From Vulcanimicrobiota bacterium (GTDB lineage: Bacteria; Vulcanimicrobiota; Vulcanimicrobiia; Vulcanimicrobiales; Vulcanimicrobiaceae), in assembly GCA_027307235.1 (NCBI GenBank), contig DAHUXH010000020.1, forward strand, positions 1 through 64,000: 64,000 nt of DNA, written 5' to 3'. Shown here in pieces: positions 41,640-52,527 of the stretch (position 1 is the first letter of the stretch; each line of letters starts with the position of its first letter). A model generated the notes under the pieces. The model was given only the letters and a program-made list of their open reading frames with translations, was not told the origin of the DNA and searched no databases. Both the position numbers and the translations under genes were made by a program.

Positions 41640-41713
41640 TCTACCGCTCCTTCGAAGTTAGCCGTGCGAGATTCAGGAAGGCGCAATTCGCTCCTGTGGA
41701 CCATACTACCGCC

Positions 41714-42880
41714 ATGCGCGACGCGCTCACGGTGTTCACGGTCTTCCTTCGTCTGGGATGCTACGCATTCGGCGGTCCGGTCGCGCATCTGAGCTATTTC
41801 CGGCGTGAATGCGTTCAACGGCGGCGCTGGCTCGACGAGCCGACCTTCGCCGCATGCATCGCGCTGACGCAGATGCTCCCGGGGCCCGGCAGTTCCCAAG
41901 TCGGGATGCTGATCGGCTGGGCGCGCGCCGGATTTCGCGGCGCCGTCGCGGCGTGGGTGGGGTTCACGCTGCCGGCCGCCGTGCTGATGACCGCCATCGC
42001 GGAACTTTCCGCGATATCACCGTTCTCCATCCGTTGGACGCATGGACTGCTCGCGGTCGCGGCCGCGGTGGTCGCAAGCGCGATCGTCTCGATGCGGCGT
42101 TCGCTCGTCACCGACGTGCCGCGCGCGCTGCTCGCGTTCGGCGTCTTGCTCGCAAGTCTGTTCTTCCCAAGTCCTTGGACGCCGCCGCTCTGCATCGTCC
42201 TAGCTGCACTGCTCGGCACGGCGTTCGTCCGAACCACAAGCGGCGCGACGGCGCGCATCGGCATCGTAGTGCCGCCGGTCGTGGCACGCATCGCAGCGAT
42301 GCTCTTCCTCGTCTCGCTCGTGATCGCGCCGCTGATCGCCGCGCACGCGCGCGCGTCGCTGCTCGGACTCACCGGACAATTGTACGTCATTGGGAGTTTG
42401 GTTTTTGGTGGTGGACACGTCGTCTTACCGTTGCTGCAGAGCAGCGTGGTCAGCAGCGGAGCCGCCACCTCGTCGCAAGTGCTCACTGGGTACGCAGCCG
42501 TCCAGGCGATGCCCGGTCCGCTCTTTTCGATCGCCGCGTATGTCGGCGCGGTCGCACACGGCGGACGCTTCGGCGCGATCGGAGCGCTCGCCGGAATCTG
42601 CGCGATCTACGCCCCGTCATTTCTGCTCTTGCTGGCGACGCTGCCGCTCTATTCACGCATGGCCTCCGACGTGCGTTTTCGCAGCGCGATTGCGGGCGCG
42701 AATGCCGGCGTGGTCGGACTCCTTGCCGCGACGTTCATCACGCCGATCGCGAGCAGCGCGCTGCGCACACCGGTCGATCTCGCGCTCGCGGTCGCTGCAT
42801 TCGTCGCGTTGCACGTCGGGCGCGTGCCGCCGTGGGCGGTCGTCGCGGGCGGCGCACTTGCGGGCTTTATCATTCGTTAA
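41714..42880 (+). CDS. chrA: Chromate transporter family protein ChrA
   Basis: A 388-aa membrane protein formed of two homologous CHR halves. The first half has LRLGCYAFGGPVAHLSYFRR, LTQMLPGPGSSQVGMLIGW and WVGFTLPAAVLMT. The second half has GSLVFGGGHVVLPLLQS and GYAAVQAMPGPLFSIAAYVG. These are the paired 'FGG.....L' and 'Q..PGP' motifs of ChrA. It could export chromate or transport a related oxyanion such as sulfate. GTG 41696 would add six residues; ATG 41714 fits the family start. Standing alone, without chrB, suggests no dedicated chromate regulator here. Confidence 0.9.
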   Translation: MRDALTVFTVFLRLGCYAFGGPVAHLSYFRRECVQRRRWLDEPTFAACIALTQMLPGPGSSQVGMLIGWARAGFRGAVAAWVGFTLPAAVLMTAIAELSAISPFSIRWTHGLLAVAAAVVASAIVSMRRSLVTDVPRALLAFGVLLASLFFPSPWTPPLCIVLAALLGTAFVRTTSGATARIGIVVPPVVARIAAMLFLVSLVIAPLIAAHARASLLGLTGQLYVIGSLVFGGGHVVLPLLQSSVVSSGAATSSQVLTGYAAVQAMPGPLFSIAAYVGAVAHGGRFGAIGALAGICAIYAPSFLLLLATLPLYSRMASDVRFRSAIAGANAGVVGLLAATFITPIASSALRTPVDLALAVAAFVALHVGRVPPWAVVAGGALAGFIIR

Positions 42881-42923: not shown

Positions 42924-45197
42924 ATGAAGCACCGCCACGCGCTTGCCGCCCTTTCACTCATCGTCGCACTCGGCGCCGCTGCAGTTGCGCAACGAACGAT
43001 CACTCTTCCGACCAGCTGGCGCATCGATGCGCCCGATGGTCCGGCCGCCATCGTCGGAACGATGCCGCAGGGCATCGCGCTCTCGCCCGACGGCACGCAG
43101 CTTGCCGTCGTCGATGCCGGTGTGAACGCACCGGATATACGCATTCTCGACGCGTCGACGTTGCAGACCGTGAAACGTCTGGACGTGAAGGACGCCTTCG
43201 GCGCACCCGTGTGGAGCGACGCAACGCACGTCGTCGTAGCCGGAGCGGGTCTTGACGGCGTGCTTGTCGCCGATGCCGCCACCGGGTCGGTCTCAGTGAC
43301 GAGCACCGGCGCGAAGTGGCCGGTGGCGGTCGCTCTCTCACGCGACCGCGCGCATATCGCGATCGCCAACGACGGTGACGGCACGATCACGCTTGCGGAT
43401 TTTCCGGCGCTCGCGCAACGTCAGAACATTGCGGTGGGCGCGCACCCGGGGCCGCTGGCGTTCTCTGCCGATGGATCGACGGTGTACGTGACCCTGCACC
43501 CCGATCGCACGCTGGTGGCAATCGACGTCGCGACGCACAACCGGCGAACGCTCGACGTCGGCTTGCATCCAAGCGCGCTCGCGCTGTCGCCCGACGGTGC
43601 GACGCTCGCCGTCGCGGCAGCCGACGACGATCGCGTCACGCTGGTCGACACGCGCTCGTTGAGCGTACGCTCCGGAATCGACGTCGGCCTGGACGCCGGA
43701 CGCACGTCCGGGAGCGGCGCTTCACCCAACGCGCTGGCATTCTCAGAAGACGGCGCGACGCTGTACGCATCGCTCGGCGCCGAGAACGCCGTCGCGGTGA
43801 TGAACACCACATCGGTGCTCGCGCGCATTCCCGTCGGCTGGTATCCCGACGGCCTCGCACTGTCGTCGCATGGAACGCTCTTCGTCTCCGACGGCAAGGG
43901 CGAGCACAGTCAGCCCAATCCCGAGTTCAATCCGTTCGGCCGGCGTTCTCCCGGCTACGTGGGCGCGACGCGGTACGGCTCGGTGCGCGCCGTCGATCTC
44001 GCCGCCGTTCGCCGTGACGATCAGGCGAGCACGCAGGCGGTCATCGCGAATGCCGCGCCGCAGTGGAGCGCGCCGAACGCCGGGCAGACCATCATCAGGC
44101 CGAACGGTCCGATCAAGCACGTCATCTACGTCATCAAGGAAAATCGCTCGTACGATCAAGTGCTCGGCGATATTCCCGGCGCGAACGGCGACCCGAAACT
44201 CACCGCCTTCGGCGAGCGTATCACGCCGAATCAACACGCGATCGCGCGGCGTTTCGGCATCTTCGACAACGCCTATGCAAACTCGCAGGTGAGCGCGGAC
44301 GGACACAACTGGACCGATGAAGCGTTCGCCAACGACTACGTCGAGCGCAACTGGCCGCCCAACTACGGAGGCCGGCGTGCGCTCTACGATTTTCAGGATA
44401 CGCAAGGTGCGCCGGTTCCCCACAACGGCTTCCTCTGGGATGCCGCCGCGCGAGCGGGCATCTCGTTCCGCGATTACGGCGAGGACATCGAGTTCCCCGA
44501 CGTCAACCCGACGACCGGAACGGCGCACGATCCCACTCTCGCGGGTCATTTCAATCCTCGCTACGTGACCTTTAATCTCACCATCCCCGACCAAGCGCGC
44601 TTCACCCATTGGGCCGCTGACTTTGCCGATTTCGTACACAACGGCGACCTGCCGGCGCTCGAAATCGTATACCTGCCGAGCGACCATACCGCGGGAACGC
44701 GTCCGGGGGCGCGCACCCCGTTTGCGTATGTGGCGGAAAACGACTACGTCTTCGGCCAGCTCGTCGATGCCGTCTCGCATTCGCCGTTCTGGAAAGACAC
44801 GGTCATCTTTTCGGTCGAAGACGATGCGCAAAACGGGCCCGATCACGTCGACGCGCAGCGGACGACGTTCTACGTCGCAAGCCCCTATGCGCGCGGCGGC
44901 GTGACCAGCGTCCACTACACGCAAGCGGGCGTCCTACATACGATCGAACTGTTGCTTGGCCTCAAACCGCTCTCGATCTATGACGCGACCGCCGAGCCGA
45001 TGTACGCCGCGTTCTCGAATACCCCGGATCTGTCGCCCTTTCGCGCACTTCCTCCGAACATCGACACGAACGCGAAGAACACGGCGGACTCCTACGGCGC
45101 AGCCATGAGCGCGAAACTCGACTTCTCCCACGCCGACGCGGCCGATCCGCGCGTCCTGACCAATATCCTGGAGCACCTGCCCCAGCCCGCTCGATAA
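42924..45197 (+). CDS. Secreted beta-propeller plus phosphoesterase protein
   Basis: A 757-aa exported protein (signal MKHRHALAALSLIVALGAAA). Residues ~30-345 form a YVTN/NHL-type beta-propeller with repeated 'PDGT.L.V....' blades (GIALSPDGTQLAVVD, SALALSPDGATLAVAAAD, ALAFSEDGATLYASLG). Residues ~390-750 form a phosphoesterase of the phospholipase C/acid phosphatase type within the alkaline-phosphatase superfamily: HVIYVIKENRSYDQVLGD, ANSQVSADGHNWTDEAFAND, YLPSDHTAGT and SVEDDAQNGPDHVDA. The layout matches proteins annotated 'bifunctional YncE family/alkaline phosphatase family'. The substrate is unknown. A strong terminator follows. Confidence 0.85.
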   Translation: MKHRHALAALSLIVALGAAAVAQRTITLPTSWRIDAPDGPAAIVGTMPQGIALSPDGTQLAVVDAGVNAPDIRILDASTLQTVKRLDVKDAFGAPVWSDATHVVVAGAGLDGVLVADAATGSVSVTSTGAKWPVAVALSRDRAHIAIANDGDGTITLADFPALAQRQNIAVGAHPGPLAFSADGSTVYVTLHPDRTLVAIDVATHNRRTLDVGLHPSALALSPDGATLAVAAADDDRVTLVDTRSLSVRSGIDVGLDAGRTSGSGASPNALAFSEDGATLYASLGAENAVAVMNTTSVLARIPVGWYPDGLALSSHGTLFVSDGKGEHSQPNPEFNPFGRRSPGYVGATRYGSVRAVDLAAVRRDDQASTQAVIANAAPQWSAPNAGQTIIRPNGPIKHVIYVIKENRSYDQVLGDIPGANGDPKLTAFGERITPNQHAIARRFGIFDNAYANSQVSADGHNWTDEAFANDYVERNWPPNYGGRRALYDFQDTQGAPVPHNGFLWDAAARAGISFRDYGEDIEFPDVNPTTGTAHDPTLAGHFNPRYVTFNLTIPDQARFTHWAADFADFVHNGDLPALEIVYLPSDHTAGTRPGARTPFAYVAENDYVFGQLVDAVSHSPFWKDTVIFSVEDDAQNGPDHVDAQRTTFYVASPYARGGVTSVHYTQAGVLHTIELLLGLKPLSIYDATAEPMYAAFSNTPDLSPFRALPPNIDTNAKNTADSYGAAMSAKLDFSHADAADPRVLTNILEHLPQPAR

Positions 45198-45383: not shown

Positions 45384-46721
45384 ATGGTAGCTACCCCATC
45401 ATCGACCGGTAACCGCTGGGGCATCGCGTTCGCGGGCGTGATCGTCATGATCACCCTGGGCACGGTGTATGCGTGGTCGTTGTTTTCAAAATCATTGATC
45501 GCCGGCTTGCATGCATCGAGCACCCAGGCGACGCTCCCGTTCGAACTCGCAATTTTCTTTCTCGGCATCGGCGCCTGGATCGGCGGTCGCTGGCAAGATC
45601 GTACGAGCCCGCGCACGGTCACGATCGCGGGCGTGCTCATGTGGGGCGTGGGCAACTTGCTCGCCGGCCTCTTCACGCAACAACTCGGCATGTGGTGGAT
45701 GGACGTGACCTACGGCGTGCTCGGCGGGCTTGGCCTGGGATTCGGGTACATCACGCCGGTCGCCATGGTCACGAAATGGTTTCCGGATCGCCGCGGGCTC
45801 GCAAGCGGCATGGTCGTGATGGGATTCGGATTGGGCGCATTCTTCTACACGCAAGTCATCAACCGCATTCCGTCGTTCGCCGCCGCCGCGAAAGCCGCGA
45901 CCGCGTACTCGGGGGCGCGCGACGCGGCCATCAAGGCCGGCACCACGTTTGATCCGACGCAATACGCATTGACGCCCGAAGCCGTCGGCGCGGTGATGGC
46001 CGCGTTCATTTGGTCAGGCGTCGTGTTCATTGTCATCGGCACGCTCTGTGCGATGGTTCTGCGCAATCCGCCCGAGGGATACACGGTTCCGGGCGCCGTC
46101 GCCGCTGTGGCCCAATCCGGCTACTCGTTCTCACCGGCACAGACGTTCCGGATGCCGCAGCTGTATCTGCTGTGGCTGATCCTATTCTTGAACGTGACCG
46201 CCGGTATTCTCGTCATCTCGAATGCCGTGCCGATCTACAGCGAATTAACCGGCGCGACGGCCGCGGCAGCGGGATTCATCTACGGATTTCTCTCGATCTG
46301 CAACGGGTTAGGCCGCTTCTTCTGGGGTGCCGTCTCGGATCGCCTGGGCCGCAACATGACGTACACCGTCATGTATCTCATTCAAGCCGTCATCTTCTTC
46401 GTCATGGCCGGCTTGCATGATTTCACGCTGGTCGGCGTCGCGTTTGCGATCGTGCTCTTGTGCTACGGCGGAGGATTCGGCGTGATGCCGTCATTCAACG
46501 CTGATTTCTTCGGCACCAAGTACATGGGCGCGAACTACGGCTTCATTCTCACGGCGTGGGGCGTGGCCGGTATCGTCGGCCCGTCGATCGCGACATTCAC
46601 GAAAGATCGTACCGGAACGTTCGCCGGAGCGTTGCTTCCGGTGGCGATCATGCTGCTGATCGCAGCGATTATTCCGTTCCTGGCTCGCAAACCAACGCCA
46701 GCGGCAGCAACGGCCGCATAG
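45384..46721 (+). CDS. OFA-type (oxalate/formate) MFS transporter
   Basis: A 445-aa major facilitator with 12 predicted helices. The start MVATPSST is chosen at 45384 because AAGGAGACACGTAC precedes it. Family-like segments include TLGTVYAWSLFSKSL in helix 1, LGLGFGYITPVAMVTKWFPD followed by RRGLASGMVVMGFGLGA, NGLGRFFWGAVSDRLGRNMT and YGGGFGVMPSF. This layout is typical of oxalate/formate antiporters. It lies 23 bases ahead of the formate dehydrogenase gene, so uptake of formate (or of oxalate with formate release) is the natural reading, although specificity cannot be read from sequence alone. Confidence 0.85.
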   Translation: MVATPSSTGNRWGIAFAGVIVMITLGTVYAWSLFSKSLIAGLHASSTQATLPFELAIFFLGIGAWIGGRWQDRTSPRTVTIAGVLMWGVGNLLAGLFTQQLGMWWMDVTYGVLGGLGLGFGYITPVAMVTKWFPDRRGLASGMVVMGFGLGAFFYTQVINRIPSFAAAAKAATAYSGARDAAIKAGTTFDPTQYALTPEAVGAVMAAFIWSGVVFIVIGTLCAMVLRNPPEGYTVPGAVAAVAQSGYSFSPAQTFRMPQLYLLWLILFLNVTAGILVISNAVPIYSELTGATAAAAGFIYGFLSICNGLGRFFWGAVSDRLGRNMTYTVMYLIQAVIFFVMAGLHDFTLVGVAFAIVLLCYGGGFGVMPSFNADFFGTKYMGANYGFILTAWGVAGIVGPSIATFTKDRTGTFAGALLPVAIMLLIAAIIPFLARKPTPAAATAA

Positions 46722-46744: not shown

Positions 46745-49700
46745 ATGGCCAAGACCACCATCGACCTCACTCGCATCCTCGGCACCGCGACCGGCTCGCT
46801 CGGCATGAGCGAGCGGGCCGGCGCGGTTCCCGACGTTCGTTCACAGCGTACACGCGAACTCAAGGGACGCATCGCCGGCGCGAAGCCGGTCGTCAGCATC
46901 TGCGCCTACTGTGCCGTCGGCTGCAGCCTGCATGCCTACGTCAGCGACGACGGAAAGCTGCTCGACGTCGAGGGAAACCCGGACAGCCCGATCTCCGGCG
47001 GACATCTCTGTCCGAAGGGCGCGGCGATCTTCGGCATGACGGTCAACACGCAGCGGTGGACGACCGTGAAATACCGCGCGCCCTACAGCGATCGCTGGGA
47101 AGAACGTCCGCTTGAATGGGCGATGGATCGCATTGCACATTTGGTAAAAGCGACCCGTGATGCCACCTTCGTGCGCGAGCGCGAGGTTCCGCAGGGCTCC
47201 GGCAAGACCAAACGGGTGAACCATACGCTCGGAATCGCGTCGCTTGGCGGCGCGACCTTCGGCGTCGAAGAAAATTACTTGCTCGGCAAGTTGATGCACT
47301 CGCTCGGCGTGGTCTCGATCGAAAACCAAGCTCGAATATGACACTCCTCGACGGTGCCCGGTCTGGGCACCTCGATGGGACGCGGCGGCGCGACGATGTG
47401 GGTTCCGGATCTCCAGAACTCAGACTGCATATTGATTCAAGGCTCGAACTTCGCGGAGAACCATCCGGTCGCGTTTCGCTTCGTGATGAAAGCGAAGGAA
47501 CGTGGCGCTACCATCATTCACGTCGATCCGCGCTTCACGCGAACGTCGGCGCTGGCCGACCTGTACGCGCCGCTGCGCAGCGGCACGGATATCGCGTTTC
47601 TCGGCGGCATTATCAATGACGTACTCTCGAACGAGCGCTACTTCAAAGAATACGCCGTTGCCTACACCAACGCGTCCTTCATCGTGAACGCGGACTTCAA
47701 AGACACCGAGGACCTCAATGGTCTCTTCTCGGGATACGACGAGGAGACGCGCGCCTACGATGCGTCGAGTTGGACGTTTGAGCGCAACGACGACGGAACG
47801 GTGAAATCCGATCCGTCGCTGCAGCACGAGCGGTGCGTCCTCAACATCCTGCGCCGCCACTACGCGCGGTACACGCCGGAGATGGTGGAGCGCATTTGCG
47901 GCACGCCGCGCGCGCAATTTCTACAGATCGCCGAACTGATCGCGCGCAACAGCGGACGTGAACGCACGACCGCTTTTGCGTATGCGCTCGGCTGGACGCA
48001 GCACTCCGCCGGCGTGCAGTTCATCCGCACCGCCGCGGTGCTGCAACTGCTGCTCGGCAACATGGGTCGCCCGGGCGGCGGCATCATGGCACTGCGCGGC
48101 CACGCGAACATCCAGGGCGCGACCGACATCGCGACGCTCTTCGACTTGCTGCCCGGCTATCTGCCGATGCCCTCGGCTCTGCGCGACGAACAAACGCTCG
48201 CGGCCTATCTCAAGACGAACACGAAGCCGACCGGCTGGTGGGCCAATACGCCGAAGTACATGGTCAGCTTGCTCAAAGCATTTTATGGCCAGGCGGCAAC
48301 AGCGCAGAACGATTATTGCTATGACTACTTGCCGCAGCTCATTGGAGACCACTCGACCCTGCCGACGCAGATCGCGATGAAGGACGGCGTCGTCAAAGGC
48401 TACTTCGTGCTGGGCCAAAACCCGGGCGCGTCGGCGCAGAACAAAGAACTAGCAATGGCCGGGCTCGACCGATTGGAATGGTTCGTCAACATCGACTCCT
48501 TCGAGACCGACACGTGCGCGTTTTGGAAACGCGAGGGCGTCGATCCGCGCACGATCGCGACCGAATGCTTCTGCTTGCCGGCGGCAACGATTCTCGAAAA
48601 AGAAGGCACGATGGTGCAGACCAGCCGCATGCTGCAATGGCACGACAAGGCGATTGAGCCAGCCGGCGACGCAAAGAGCGACCTGTGGTATTTCTGGCAG
48701 CTCGGGAAACAGTTGCAGGCGCTCTACGAGCATTCGACCGACCCCAAAGACCGGCCGATTCTCGACATGACCTGGGACTACGAGCACGAGGACGAACACG
48801 AGCGCCGGCGCGGCGAACCATCCGCGCTCAAAGTGCTGCAAGAGATCAACGGCTACTACACGCACCCCGAAGAGGGCGCCCGCCAAGTCAAGACGTTCGG
48901 CGATTTGAAAGATGACGGTTCGACCGCATCCGGCGGTTGGATCTACACCGGCGTCTGTCCCGACAAACGCACCAACAACGCCCGCAATCGCGAACCGAAC
49001 GATACGACGTCGCTCGGTTGGGGATGGGCGTGGCCGGCCAACCGGCGCACGCTCTACAATCGCGCGTCGGCCGATCCCGACGGCAACCCGTGGAGCGAGC
49101 GAAAGAAATATGTGTGGTGGGATCAAGCGGACGGCCGATGGACGGGGTACGACGTTCCCGACTTTCCGCTCACCAAGGCTCCCAACACGCCGGCGAAGCC
49201 CGGAGCGGGCGGACTCGACGCGCATAGCGGCTCCGATCCGTTCATCATGATGGCGGAAGGACGCGGCCAGCTCTTCGTTCCCGGCGGTGCGCTCAAGGAC
49301 GGTCCGCTGCCCGCGCACTACGAGCCTCTGCAATCGGTCGTCGAAAATCAGCTCTATTCACAGCAAAGCAATCCCGTGATGCGCGAATGGCATCGCCCCG
49401 ACAACCGCTACAACGATCCGGTCGATGAAGCGTTTCCGCACGTGATGACGACCTACCGCGTCACCGAGATGTCGGGCATCATGACACGCTACATTCCGTG
49501 GCTGGCCGAACTGCAGCCCAGTGCGTTCTGCGAAATCGATCCCGATTTGGCCGTGCGGCACGAGATTCGCAGCGGCGATTGGGTCGTCGTCTCGACGGCC
49601 CTCGGCGAGATGGAAGCGCGCGCGCTCGTCAGCGGCCGCTTGCGCCCGCTGCGCGTCGCTTCAGGGCAGCGCGTGCATCAAATCGGCATTCCCTACAACT

Positions 49701-49897
49701 ATGGTAAGGTCGGTTTCGCAACCGGTGATTCACCGGGTGCATTGATTCCGCTCTCGATGGACCCAAATTCTTCGATTCACGAAGCGAAAACCATGACGTG
49801 CAACATCCGCAAGGGACGCAGGACGGCGTATCGCGCGGGAGTCGTCGACGCAGACGTTCCCGTGTCGATGCGAACGGGCCATGGGGAGTGGGACTGA
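46745..49897 (+). CDS. Formate dehydrogenase alpha subunit (selenoprotein)
   Basis: A 1050-aa molybdopterin oxidoreductase oxidising formate to CO2. It has an N-terminal [4Fe-4S] site (C53, C56, C60, C89: ICAYCAVGC ... HLCPKG). The TGA at 47339-47341 falls at residue 199 in the context NQARI-U-HSSTVPGLG, the exact place of selenocysteine in E. coli FdnG (NQARV-U-HGPT). Both halves are in one frame and homologous across the TGA, and a SECIS hairpin follows. GAGGAG precedes the ATG. No twin-arginine signal is visible, unlike FdnG. The Mo-bis-MGD domains and the C-terminal dinucleotide-binding domain (EMEARALVSGRLRPL, GQRVHQIGIPYNYGKVG) are complete. It overlaps the FeS subunit by one base. Gene callers would split this into two ORFs. 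Confidence 0.93.
47339..47374 (+). other. Selenocysteine UGA codon and bacterial SECIS hairpin
   Basis: The TGA (47339-47341) is followed 18 bases later by the loop GGTCT (47360-47364), closed by the perfect 7-bp stem GGTGCCC/GGGCACC (353-359 with 365-371). A lower CGA/TCG stem (349-351 with 372-374) is separated by one bulged C (352). E. coli fdhF has the same loop GGUCU at the same 18-base distance from its UGA. Function: recruits SelB and Sec-tRNA. The selA, selB, selC and selD genes must lie elsewhere. Confidence 0.9.
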
Positions 49898-50742
49898 TGG
49901 CAACCGGGTTCTTCACCGACGCGACGCTGTGCATCGGCTGCAAAGCCTGTGAGGTCGCGTGCAAGCAATGGAACGAACTGCCCTCGGACGGCTTCGTATT
50001 CTCCGGCAACTCCTACGACAACACGAGCGAACTGTCGGGAACGACGTGGCGTCACGTCGCTTTTGTCGAAGAGCGCGCGGTTGCCGAGGACACGGTCGTC
50101 AGCGCGTGGTCGATGGTCAGCGATGTGTGCAAGCATTGCACCAACGCAGCCTGTCATGAGGCGTGTCCCACCGGCGCGATCATCCGCAACGAGTTCGGCA
50201 ACATCTTCATCCAGCCGGATGTCTGCAATGGGTGCGGCTACTGCGTCGTCGCTTGCCCGTTCGGCGTGGTGGATCTGATCGGGCACGTCGATCCGGACGG
50301 CGTGCTGTACAATCTCGCGACGCTGCATGACGACCGGCGTGAAGCAGAGCAGACTGCGCTGCAAGGCAGCGGCGGCGTGGCGGGCAAGTGCACGCTGTGC
50401 TATGACCGGCAGCGCTCGGGTTTCGTACCGGCCTGCGCGAAGGCGTGCCCGACCGAATCGATTCAATTCGGCGACGTTGACGAATTGCGCGAACGCGCAC
50501 GCGTGCGTGTCGAAACACTGCAAGCGCGCGGTGTCGATGCGTCGCTCTACGGCGCCGACGACGTCGGCGGCGGCATCGGTCCACTCAACGCCTTCTTCCT
50601 GTTGACCGGCGAGCCCGAGTCGTATAATCTGCCGTCGCAGCCGGTCTTGCCGTCGACGCGACAGGCGCACGGATATGCGGCCGGCGCGCTCGCAGCGCTC
50701 GCGTTGGCAGCGGTCGGCTTCACGATCTTCCGGGGACGCTAA
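49897..50742 (+). CDS. Formate dehydrogenase iron-sulfur subunit
   Basis: A 281-aa ferredoxin-type electron carrier (FdnH/FdhB class). Four cysteine groups for [4Fe-4S] clusters are visible: CIGCKACEVAC, CKHCTNAACHEACPTGA, CNGCGYCVVACPFG, and CTLCYDRQRSGFVPACAKAC followed by PTES. A single C-terminal membrane helix (GYAAGALAALALAAVGFTIF) anchors it, as in FdnH. ATG 49897 shares a base with the fdhA stop. Electrons pass from the alpha subunit through these clusters toward the NrfD-like membrane subunit downstream. Confidence 0.93.
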   Translation: MATGFFTDATLCIGCKACEVACKQWNELPSDGFVFSGNSYDNTSELSGTTWRHVAFVEERAVAEDTVVSAWSMVSDVCKHCTNAACHEACPTGAIIRNEFGNIFIQPDVCNGCGYCVVACPFGVVDLIGHVDPDGVLYNLATLHDDRREAEQTALQGSGGVAGKCTLCYDRQRSGFVPACAKACPTESIQFGDVDELRERARVRVETLQARGVDASLYGADDVGGGIGPLNAFFLLTGEPESYNLPSQPVLPSTRQAHGYAAGALAALALAAVGFTIFRGR

Positions 50743-50746
50743 CGCC

Positions 50747-51670
50747 ATGAACGACACGTACTACGACCGGCCGCTGCTCAAAGGACCGCATTGGGGCAGC
50801 AACGTCGTCACGTATTTGTTCCTCGGCGGCATCATGGGCGGGCTCGGTCTAATTCAAACGATCGCGGGCTCGGAGAAGACACCGGAAGCGATTCGCTTGC
50901 GTCGCGATGCGCGCTACGCGTCGTTCGCCCTGGCCGTCGTCTGCCCGCCGATCTTGATCTCGCATCTGGGGCGTCCCGAGCGATTCTTGAACATGCTGCG
51001 CATCCTCAAGTGGCGTTCGCCGATGTCGCTCGGCGTATGGGGACTCGTCGCCTACACCGGAGCCGCGGGTGCGAACGTGATGCGTGAACTCGCCGACGAG
51101 GGCACGCTGCCGCGATGGATGCGCCATCTCGCACCGAAGGTGCTCAATCCCGTGCAGGCGCTGCTCGGTGCGTTTATCGCCGGGTACACCGGCGTGCTGA
51201 TCAGCGCGACCGCGATTCCGCTCTGGGGTAAAGGGAAGACGCATATCCCGGCGGCGTCGGTCTGCTCGTCGGCATCAGGCGCATGCGCGCTCTCGTCGCT
51301 GCTTTCGACGCTCGGCGGCAATCACACCGTCACGCGAAAGCTCGAGCGCCTGGAAATGGTTGCCGCCCTCGGCGAACTTGCGATCCTGCGCCACTTCCGC
51401 ACGCACGCAGGTCCCGTGGGCGCGCCACTCTTCGAGGGTGAACGCGGCGAGCGCTTCGAGAACTATACCGTCGTCGCCGGCATCATCGCACCAACGATCT
51501 TGAATCTGATCGGCCAGGTCGTCAACCTTCCCAAACCGGTCGATGCCGTGCGCACCATCCTGGCCTCGACACTGACACTGGCCGGCGCATACGTGTTTCG
51601 CGAATCGTTGATCGAAGCCGGGAAACTTTCGGCGAACGATCCCAAAGCAGCGCATCGCCAACCACAATGA
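50747..51670 (+). CDS. NrfD/PsrC-type membrane subunit of formate dehydrogenase
   Basis: A 307-aa membrane protein with about eight helices and no heme-binding histidine pairs typical of FdnI. Motifs such as TYLFLGGIMGGLGLIQTIAG, CPPILISHLGRPERFLNMLR (conserved L-I-x-D/H-L-G-R-P) and WRSPMSLGVWGLVAY identify the NrfD/PsrC quinone-reactive family. The module therefore links formate oxidation to (mena)quinone through NrfD rather than through cytochrome b556. It overlaps fdhD by 4 bases. Confidence 0.88.
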   Translation: MNDTYYDRPLLKGPHWGSNVVTYLFLGGIMGGLGLIQTIAGSEKTPEAIRLRRDARYASFALAVVCPPILISHLGRPERFLNMLRILKWRSPMSLGVWGLVAYTGAAGANVMRELADEGTLPRWMRHLAPKVLNPVQALLGAFIAGYTGVLISATAIPLWGKGKTHIPAASVCSSASGACALSSLLSTLGGNHTVTRKLERLEMVAALGELAILRHFRTHAGPVGAPLFEGERGERFENYTVVAGIIAPTILNLIGQVVNLPKPVDAVRTILASTLTLAGAYVFRESLIEAGKLSANDPKAAHRQPQ

Positions 51671-52527
51671 ATCTCGACCGCGGCTCCGGCGCGCGGCCGG
51701 GACGCACCAGCAACGTCCCCATCGCCGCGTTCACCGAGCGCGCGATCACGCGCACGTATGACGACATCGTCACCGAGGAGCCGCTCGAGATTCGGCTCGT
51801 CGCCGGCGCGACCACGCAGACGCTCGCCATCACGATGCGAACGCCCGGTCACGATTTTGAACTCGCCGCCGGATTCGTATGCACGGAGGGAATCGTCGGT
51901 GCGCGTGACGACATCGCGGGCATCTCGTACTGCGTGGACCCGGCCATCGATGCCGAGCAGCGCTACAACATCGTCAACATCGAACTACGCACCGCGCACC
52001 TGCCGAACCTCGATCGATTCGAACGTCATTTCACGATGAACAGTTCGTGCGGCATCTGCGGCCGCGCGAACCTCGACGCCCTGCGCGATCGCGGCGTTTC
52101 TCCGATCGAGGACGATGTCACGATTCCGGTCGATCTGCTCTACGAACTCCCGGCGAAGATGCGCGATGCGCAGCGGATCTTCAGCGCGACCGGCGGCTTG
52201 CACGCAACCGCGCTTTTCACGTCCGGCGGCGAACTGATGACGCTCCGGGAAGACGTCGGGCGTCACAATGCGCTCGACAAGGCCATCGGATGGGCGTTCC
52301 TCAACAACCGCCTTCCGCTCGCGGGCACGATCGCGTTCGTGAGCGGCCGGTCCAGTTACGAGATCGTGCAGAAGTGCGCCGTCGCCCGCATTGCGATCGT
52401 CGCAGCTGTCTCCGCGCCGAGCAACCTCGCCGTCGACGTCGCGCGAGAGTTCGGTATTACCCTCGCCGGCTTCGTCCGCGATCACCGCTGCAACGTCTAC
52501 AGCCGCGAAGACCGCATCCGCGCCTAA
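51667..52527 (+). CDS. fdhD: Formate dehydrogenase accessory sulfurtransferase FdhD
   Basis: Delivers sulfur to the molybdenum cofactor before insertion into formate dehydrogenase. The 286-aa protein has the conserved TEEPLEIRL opening, MRTPGHDFELAAGFVCTEGI, the CxxC loop SSCGICGRA, GGLHATALFTSGGELMTLRE, and DVGRHNALDKAIGWAF. The ending GFVRDHRCNVYS is typical. Last gene of the formate operon; its TAA stop is shared with the converging kinase gene. Together with the transporter and three subunits this makes a self-contained five-gene module, except for selenium genes. Confidence 0.95.
   Translation: MNLDRGSGARPGRTSNVPIAAFTERAITRTYDDIVTEEPLEIRLVAGATTQTLAITMRTPGHDFELAAGFVCTEGIVGARDDIAGISYCVDPAIDAEQRYNIVNIELRTAHLPNLDRFERHFTMNSSCGICGRANLDALRDRGVSPIEDDVTIPVDLLYELPAKMRDAQRIFSATGGLHATALFTSGGELMTLREDVGRHNALDKAIGWAFLNNRLPLAGTIAFVSGRSSYEIVQKCAVARIAIVAAVSAPSNLAVDVAREFGITLAGFVRDHRCNVYSREDRIRA

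Follow-up and report, generated by a model that had tools for sequence, protein, structure and literature searches.

The window (the whole 64-kb stretch of DNA analysed here) carries a gene, fdhA, for what is very probably (probability about 0.97) a Mo- or W-dependent formate dehydrogenase with an active-site selenocysteine (Sec) at residue 199, the UGA codon being read through by means of a standard hairpin and the products of the sel genes. The enzyme, the hairpin and the machinery are those of the well-known, textbook bacterial system; what appears to be new is their occurrence in the little-studied phylum Vulcanimicrobiota (Eremiobacterota).

The formate dehydrogenase reading frame

The catalytic subunit and its internal stop codon lie as follows:

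46745-49897, + strand: fdhA, formate dehydrogenase catalytic subunit, predicted Sec at residue 199 (read-through translation, TIGR01553, FdnG alignment)
47339-47341, + strand: UGA, predicted selenocysteine codon (opposite the Sec of FdnG; a stop codon in 52 of 52 readable relatives)

In read-through translation the frame has 1050 codons and the TGA at 47339-47341 is its only interruption; a second TGA is the terminal stop. The internal TGA is residue 199, in the context NQARI-U-H, and the 851 codons 3′ of it are otherwise intact and conserved. An earlier note on this DNA had pointed to two coding stretches separated by one TGA, and this is what we find. The split-frame pattern is by itself uninformative, since in the GC-rich window chance alone often yields long frames split by a TGA (24 cases with >140 codons on each side), and it was dropped as evidence.

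The product matches TIGR01553 over its full length (residues 26-1023 on profile positions 22-1009) scoring 1029.9 bits (cut-off 814.2), and it is the only formate dehydrogenase above that cut-off in the genome. It has the N-terminal [4Fe-4S] cysteine motif and the molybdopterin domains (PF04879, PF00384 and PF01568), and U199 is followed by His, as expected of the active-site Sec/Cys position of the family. Among solved structures the best relatives are FdnG of E. coli and another set of formate dehydrogenase alpha subunits that contain Sec, in each case with Sec opposite the TGA. The alignment with FdnG (1kqf; 41% identity over 1041 aligned columns) runs unbroken across the TGA, which stands opposite Sec196; the homology across the stop codon that the earlier note had described is thus real. 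The same Sec position, full-length homology and a bSECIS after the UGA are shared with TIGR01553 enzymes such as E. coli FdnG and Desulfovibrio FdhA.

Gene cluster and predicted direction of the reaction

Four further genes accompany fdhA:

45399-46721, + strand: MFS transporter, oxalate/formate antiporter and lactate transporter group (NF049980, 348.1 bits, cut-off 320)
49897-50742, + strand: fdhB, iron-sulphur subunit, hydrophobic stretch at the C-terminus (TIGR01582, 148.6 bits, below the cut-off of 334.7; Fer4 domains)
50747-51670, + strand: NrfD-type membrane subunit (PF03916, 75.9 bits)
51667-52527, + strand: fdhD, sulphurtransferase for formate dehydrogenase maturation (NF001943, 292.9 bits, cut-off 269; PF02634)

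The start of fdhB overlaps the stop of fdhA (TGATG), and the order transporter-fdhA-fdhB-NrfD-type-fdhD recurs in the closest relatives. The transporter start at 45399 is assumed, the longest ORF running from 45339. Its score against TIGR00890 (210.2 bits) is under the cut-off for that family, and the gene is putatively assigned at the level of the group, that is, as an oxalate/formate or lactate type. Further upstream are a chromate efflux transporter (41696-42880; TIGR00937, 267.2 bits, over the cut-off) and a gene at 42924-45197 which, from weak matches, may encode a beta-propeller protein with a phosphatase/phospholipase-like C-terminal part. The latter gene is kept upstream of the formate dehydrogenase cluster in several relatives.

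FdhA would oxidize formate to CO2 and pass the electrons to the iron-sulphur subunit FdhB, and from there to the NrfD-type membrane subunit, which is likely to be the quinone site, and into the quinone pool. FdhD would assist in maturation of the catalytic subunit. The FdnG-type enzyme has a cytochrome b, FdnI, as its membrane subunit, in contrast to the NrfD-type subunit of the window's cluster. A second difference from FdnG is at the N-terminus: periplasmic FDH-N of the FdnG type is recognized by a twin-arginine signal on the catalytic subunit, whereas inspection by eye of the N-terminus of the window's FdhA revealed no Tat signal or motif of the RRxFL or RRxFLK type. From this we infer a cytoplasmic location, and FdhA, unlike FdnG, probably faces the cytoplasm. 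An RR motif is present in three relatives (L027, L028 and L030; Geomonas and two deltaproteobacterial-type MAGs).

Metal-dependent formate dehydrogenases can be reversible, which, together with the lack of a visible Tat signal, could be taken to indicate a Sec enzyme that is mainly a CO2 reductase, or that acts on another substrate, rather than a respiratory formate oxidase. However, the NrfD-type partner, the iron-sulphur subunit and the nearby transporter of the formate/oxalate group fit formate oxidation linked to the quinone pool, and we consider a mainly reductive role, or another substrate, unlikely. Selenium-dependent formate oxidation in the window's organism, as put forward in the earlier note, is our prediction too.

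Conservation of the stop codon and of the hairpin

The codon at the Sec position could be read in 52 relatives: 51 have TGA, one has TAG and none has a cysteine codon. Because some genomes were present in both of two collections and so contribute two loci (L029 and L060 are such a pair), slightly fewer than 52 cases are independent. The TGA occurs at the same codon in independent assemblies and in isolates (Caulobacter, Arthrobacter, Geomonas and many MAGs). The single TAG is in a Blastococcus sp. MAG (L025:4481-4483; JAODNN010000160.1), where the hairpin is unchanged; UAG-coded Sec in Blastococcus and relatives has been described previously (Mukai 2016, as cited in PMC5330540).

The hairpin follows the codon directly:

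47353-47371, + strand: bSECIS apical hairpin, 7-bp stem and GGUCU loop, the loop 18 nt after the UGA (fold, covariation, E. coli comparison, covariance model R1)

Its sequence is GGUGCCC-GGUCU-GGGCACC, with 47353-47359 paired to 47365-47371. In bacteria, a SECIS element is a stem-loop directly 3′ of the UGA whose loop contains a guanine and lies within a short, limited distance of the codon, and the fdhA hairpin, with its GGUCU loop at 18 nt and its covarying stem, conforms to this description. The earlier note had likened the loop and spacing to those of E. coli fdhF; reading both sequences (the latter from MG1655) confirms that the GGUCU loop begins 18 nt after the UGA in each, the hairpin being directly 3′. 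E. coli fdnG has AGUCU at this place. The 7-bp stem in the window is perfect and GC-rich, whereas for E. coli a shorter, interrupted stem is predicted and the fold is weaker (-14.9 kcal/mol compared with -22.5 kcal/mol).

Folding of the RNA from the UGA onward gave the value of -22.5 kcal/mol, which corresponds to z = -3.06 relative to dinucleotide-shuffled controls. We also used a codon-preserving null in which the protein was kept and codons were redrawn from fdhA itself. Under this null an equally good fold was seen in 70 of 5000 controls (p about 0.014), and all 7 stem pairs were retained in 352 of 5000, so that the hairpin in one sequence is weak evidence. By itself, then, the folding energy is only moderately unusual, and the case rests on covariation. 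A search of the 64-kb window with Rfam at gathering thresholds gave no match and hence no independent support. A covariance model (R1) of formate dehydrogenase hairpins gave one strong match in the whole genome, 66.2 bits at fdhA, with the next at 16.2. Since the fdhA hairpin was included in building R1, the 66.2 bits are by construction; the informative result is that there was no further strong site, and thus no sign of a second selenoprotein within the reach of the model, which is FDH-like hairpins.

In the 35 distinct hairpins, 98.4% of cells pair. The stem covariation is 0.348, compared with 0.124 after shuffling (0 of 500 shuffles were as high), and the signal is lost when the partner is shifted by 1-3 bases. 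Compensatory states are found at stem pair 18-30 (GC 23, CG 7, UA 4) and at stem pair 21-27 (CG 26, UA 6, GC 3). Both pairs are at third codon positions, so that the matched changes are not forced by the protein; the compensatory changes in the stem are mostly synonymous. A stop codon in all 52 relatives combined with stem covariation rules out chance.

These comparisons also bear on whether the TGA arose through faulty sequencing or assembly, or marks a decaying pseudogene. The assembly that contains the window is in 20 contigs, and one base change would give a cysteine codon, TGC or TGT. An error, which the earlier note had itself named as one result that would overturn its reading, is excluded by the same TGA in independent relatives and is refuted for the family. 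The intact and conserved downstream codons and the covarying hairpin argue against both error and decay, and we regard either as very improbable.

Selenocysteine machinery

The earlier note had predicted that selA, selB, selC and selD would be present at other places in the genome, and all four were found, making the bacterial Sec-decoding trait complete in this assembly (2.41 Mb, 20 contigs, 96.6% complete). On contig C9, selA (243950-245257, 518.9 bits) is adjacent to selB (242067-243902, 324.5 bits), whose product has the C-terminal SelB winged-helix domain, and the tRNA-Sec gene, selC, is at C9:230055-230144 (72.7 bits, anticodon UCA). selD, which has no internal stop, is at C17:17451-18377 (382.1 bits). 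The three protein genes score over their family cut-offs.

By the standard scheme, SelA would convert Ser-tRNA-Sec to Sec-tRNA-Sec with selenophosphate from SelD. The SelB encoded in the genome, with its wing domain, is predicted to bind the fdhA hairpin just 3′ of the UGA and would deliver Sec-tRNA-Sec (anticodon UCA), so that the ribosome would read through rather than stop. Decoding of the UGA by an ordinary tRNA (as tryptophan, or by general suppression), which is possible at a low level at any in-frame UGA, is hardly credible here, where the codon sits at a Sec/Cys active site, the genome encodes all of the Sec machinery, including a tRNA-Sec with anticodon UCA, and TGA is the normal terminator elsewhere, including at the end of fdhA itself.

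Distribution in the Vulcanimicrobiota

On balance we favour the view that Sec is widespread in the Vulcanimicrobiota and unreported, that its Sec formate dehydrogenases face the cytoplasm and form two lineages, of which one is restricted to the phylum and the other allied with Actinomycetota, that some members have UGSC proteins as a second selenoprotein family, and that oxidation of trace formate is part of the lifestyle. The nearest named relatives of the window's enzyme are Candidatus Eremiobacterota/Vulcanimicrobiota MAGs. In a survey of 149 genomes of the phylum, selA was present in 121 and a formate dehydrogenase of the window's type (E <= 1e-200) in 64. selA accompanied the enzyme in 62 of these 64 genomes, compared with 59 of the 85 others (Fisher p = 1e-5, uncorrected for kinship); the two exceptions (G085 and G120) are 70% and 83% complete. 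The 59 selA-positive genomes of the latter set have no formate dehydrogenase match at that threshold. An internal TGA reported in one selA (that of G134) proved to be the terminal stop of the gene.

The actinobacterial-type Sec formate dehydrogenases (NF041513, formate_DH_Act) have the same Sec site and the same fdhA-fdhB-nrfD layout as the window's cluster. Against this model the window's FdhA scores 1393.3 bits, just below the cut-off of 1400, and it also differs in its position in the tree, a quick one with insecure deep branches: it falls in a distinct clade (22 sequences, support 99), whose members are from named Vulcanimicrobiota, from other genomes of the window's phylum, or from 'bacterium' MAGs that share 72-76% identity with it. 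A further 17 Vulcanimicrobiota sequences form another group, which adjoins Actinomycetota, and the phylum contains both the NF041513 kind and the window's kind. The two groups suggest two histories of the enzyme in the phylum, at least one of them via transfer between phyla.

Among bacterial selenoproteins, FdhA has been described as the one with the widest distribution (PMC13188914; PMC5029168). We found no paper with both Eremiobacterota and selenocysteine, and the earlier suggestion that such a system may not be documented in this lineage holds for the literature searched; subscription papers and database annotations lay outside the search, so the absence of a prior report is unproven. The two papers matching both Eremiobacterota and formate dehydrogenase concern other organisms, and there is no mention of formate or of selenium in the main text of the paper describing the Vulcanimicrobium isolate (PMC9758169).

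The understanding of Sec insertion is unchanged by these results; their value is one of annotation, and unsurprising. A largely uncultivated phylum joins the map of selenium users and gains a predicted selenium-requiring, formate-oxidizing respiratory enzyme, which is relevant to the supply of selenite, Mo or W, and formate in cultivation media. A pipeline that terminates genes at UGA would split the catalytic subunit and overlook the Sec trait. The earlier note's statement that the gene would come out broken from standard gene calling was too strong, since the curated NCBI families TIGR01553 and NF041513 already cover such proteins.

The window's genome has no member of the UGSC family. Elsewhere in the phylum, UGSC-family proteins are found in 18 of the 149 genomes (L087-L092 and others), nearly all with an in-frame TGA, and they may represent a second selenoprotein family in the Vulcanimicrobiota.
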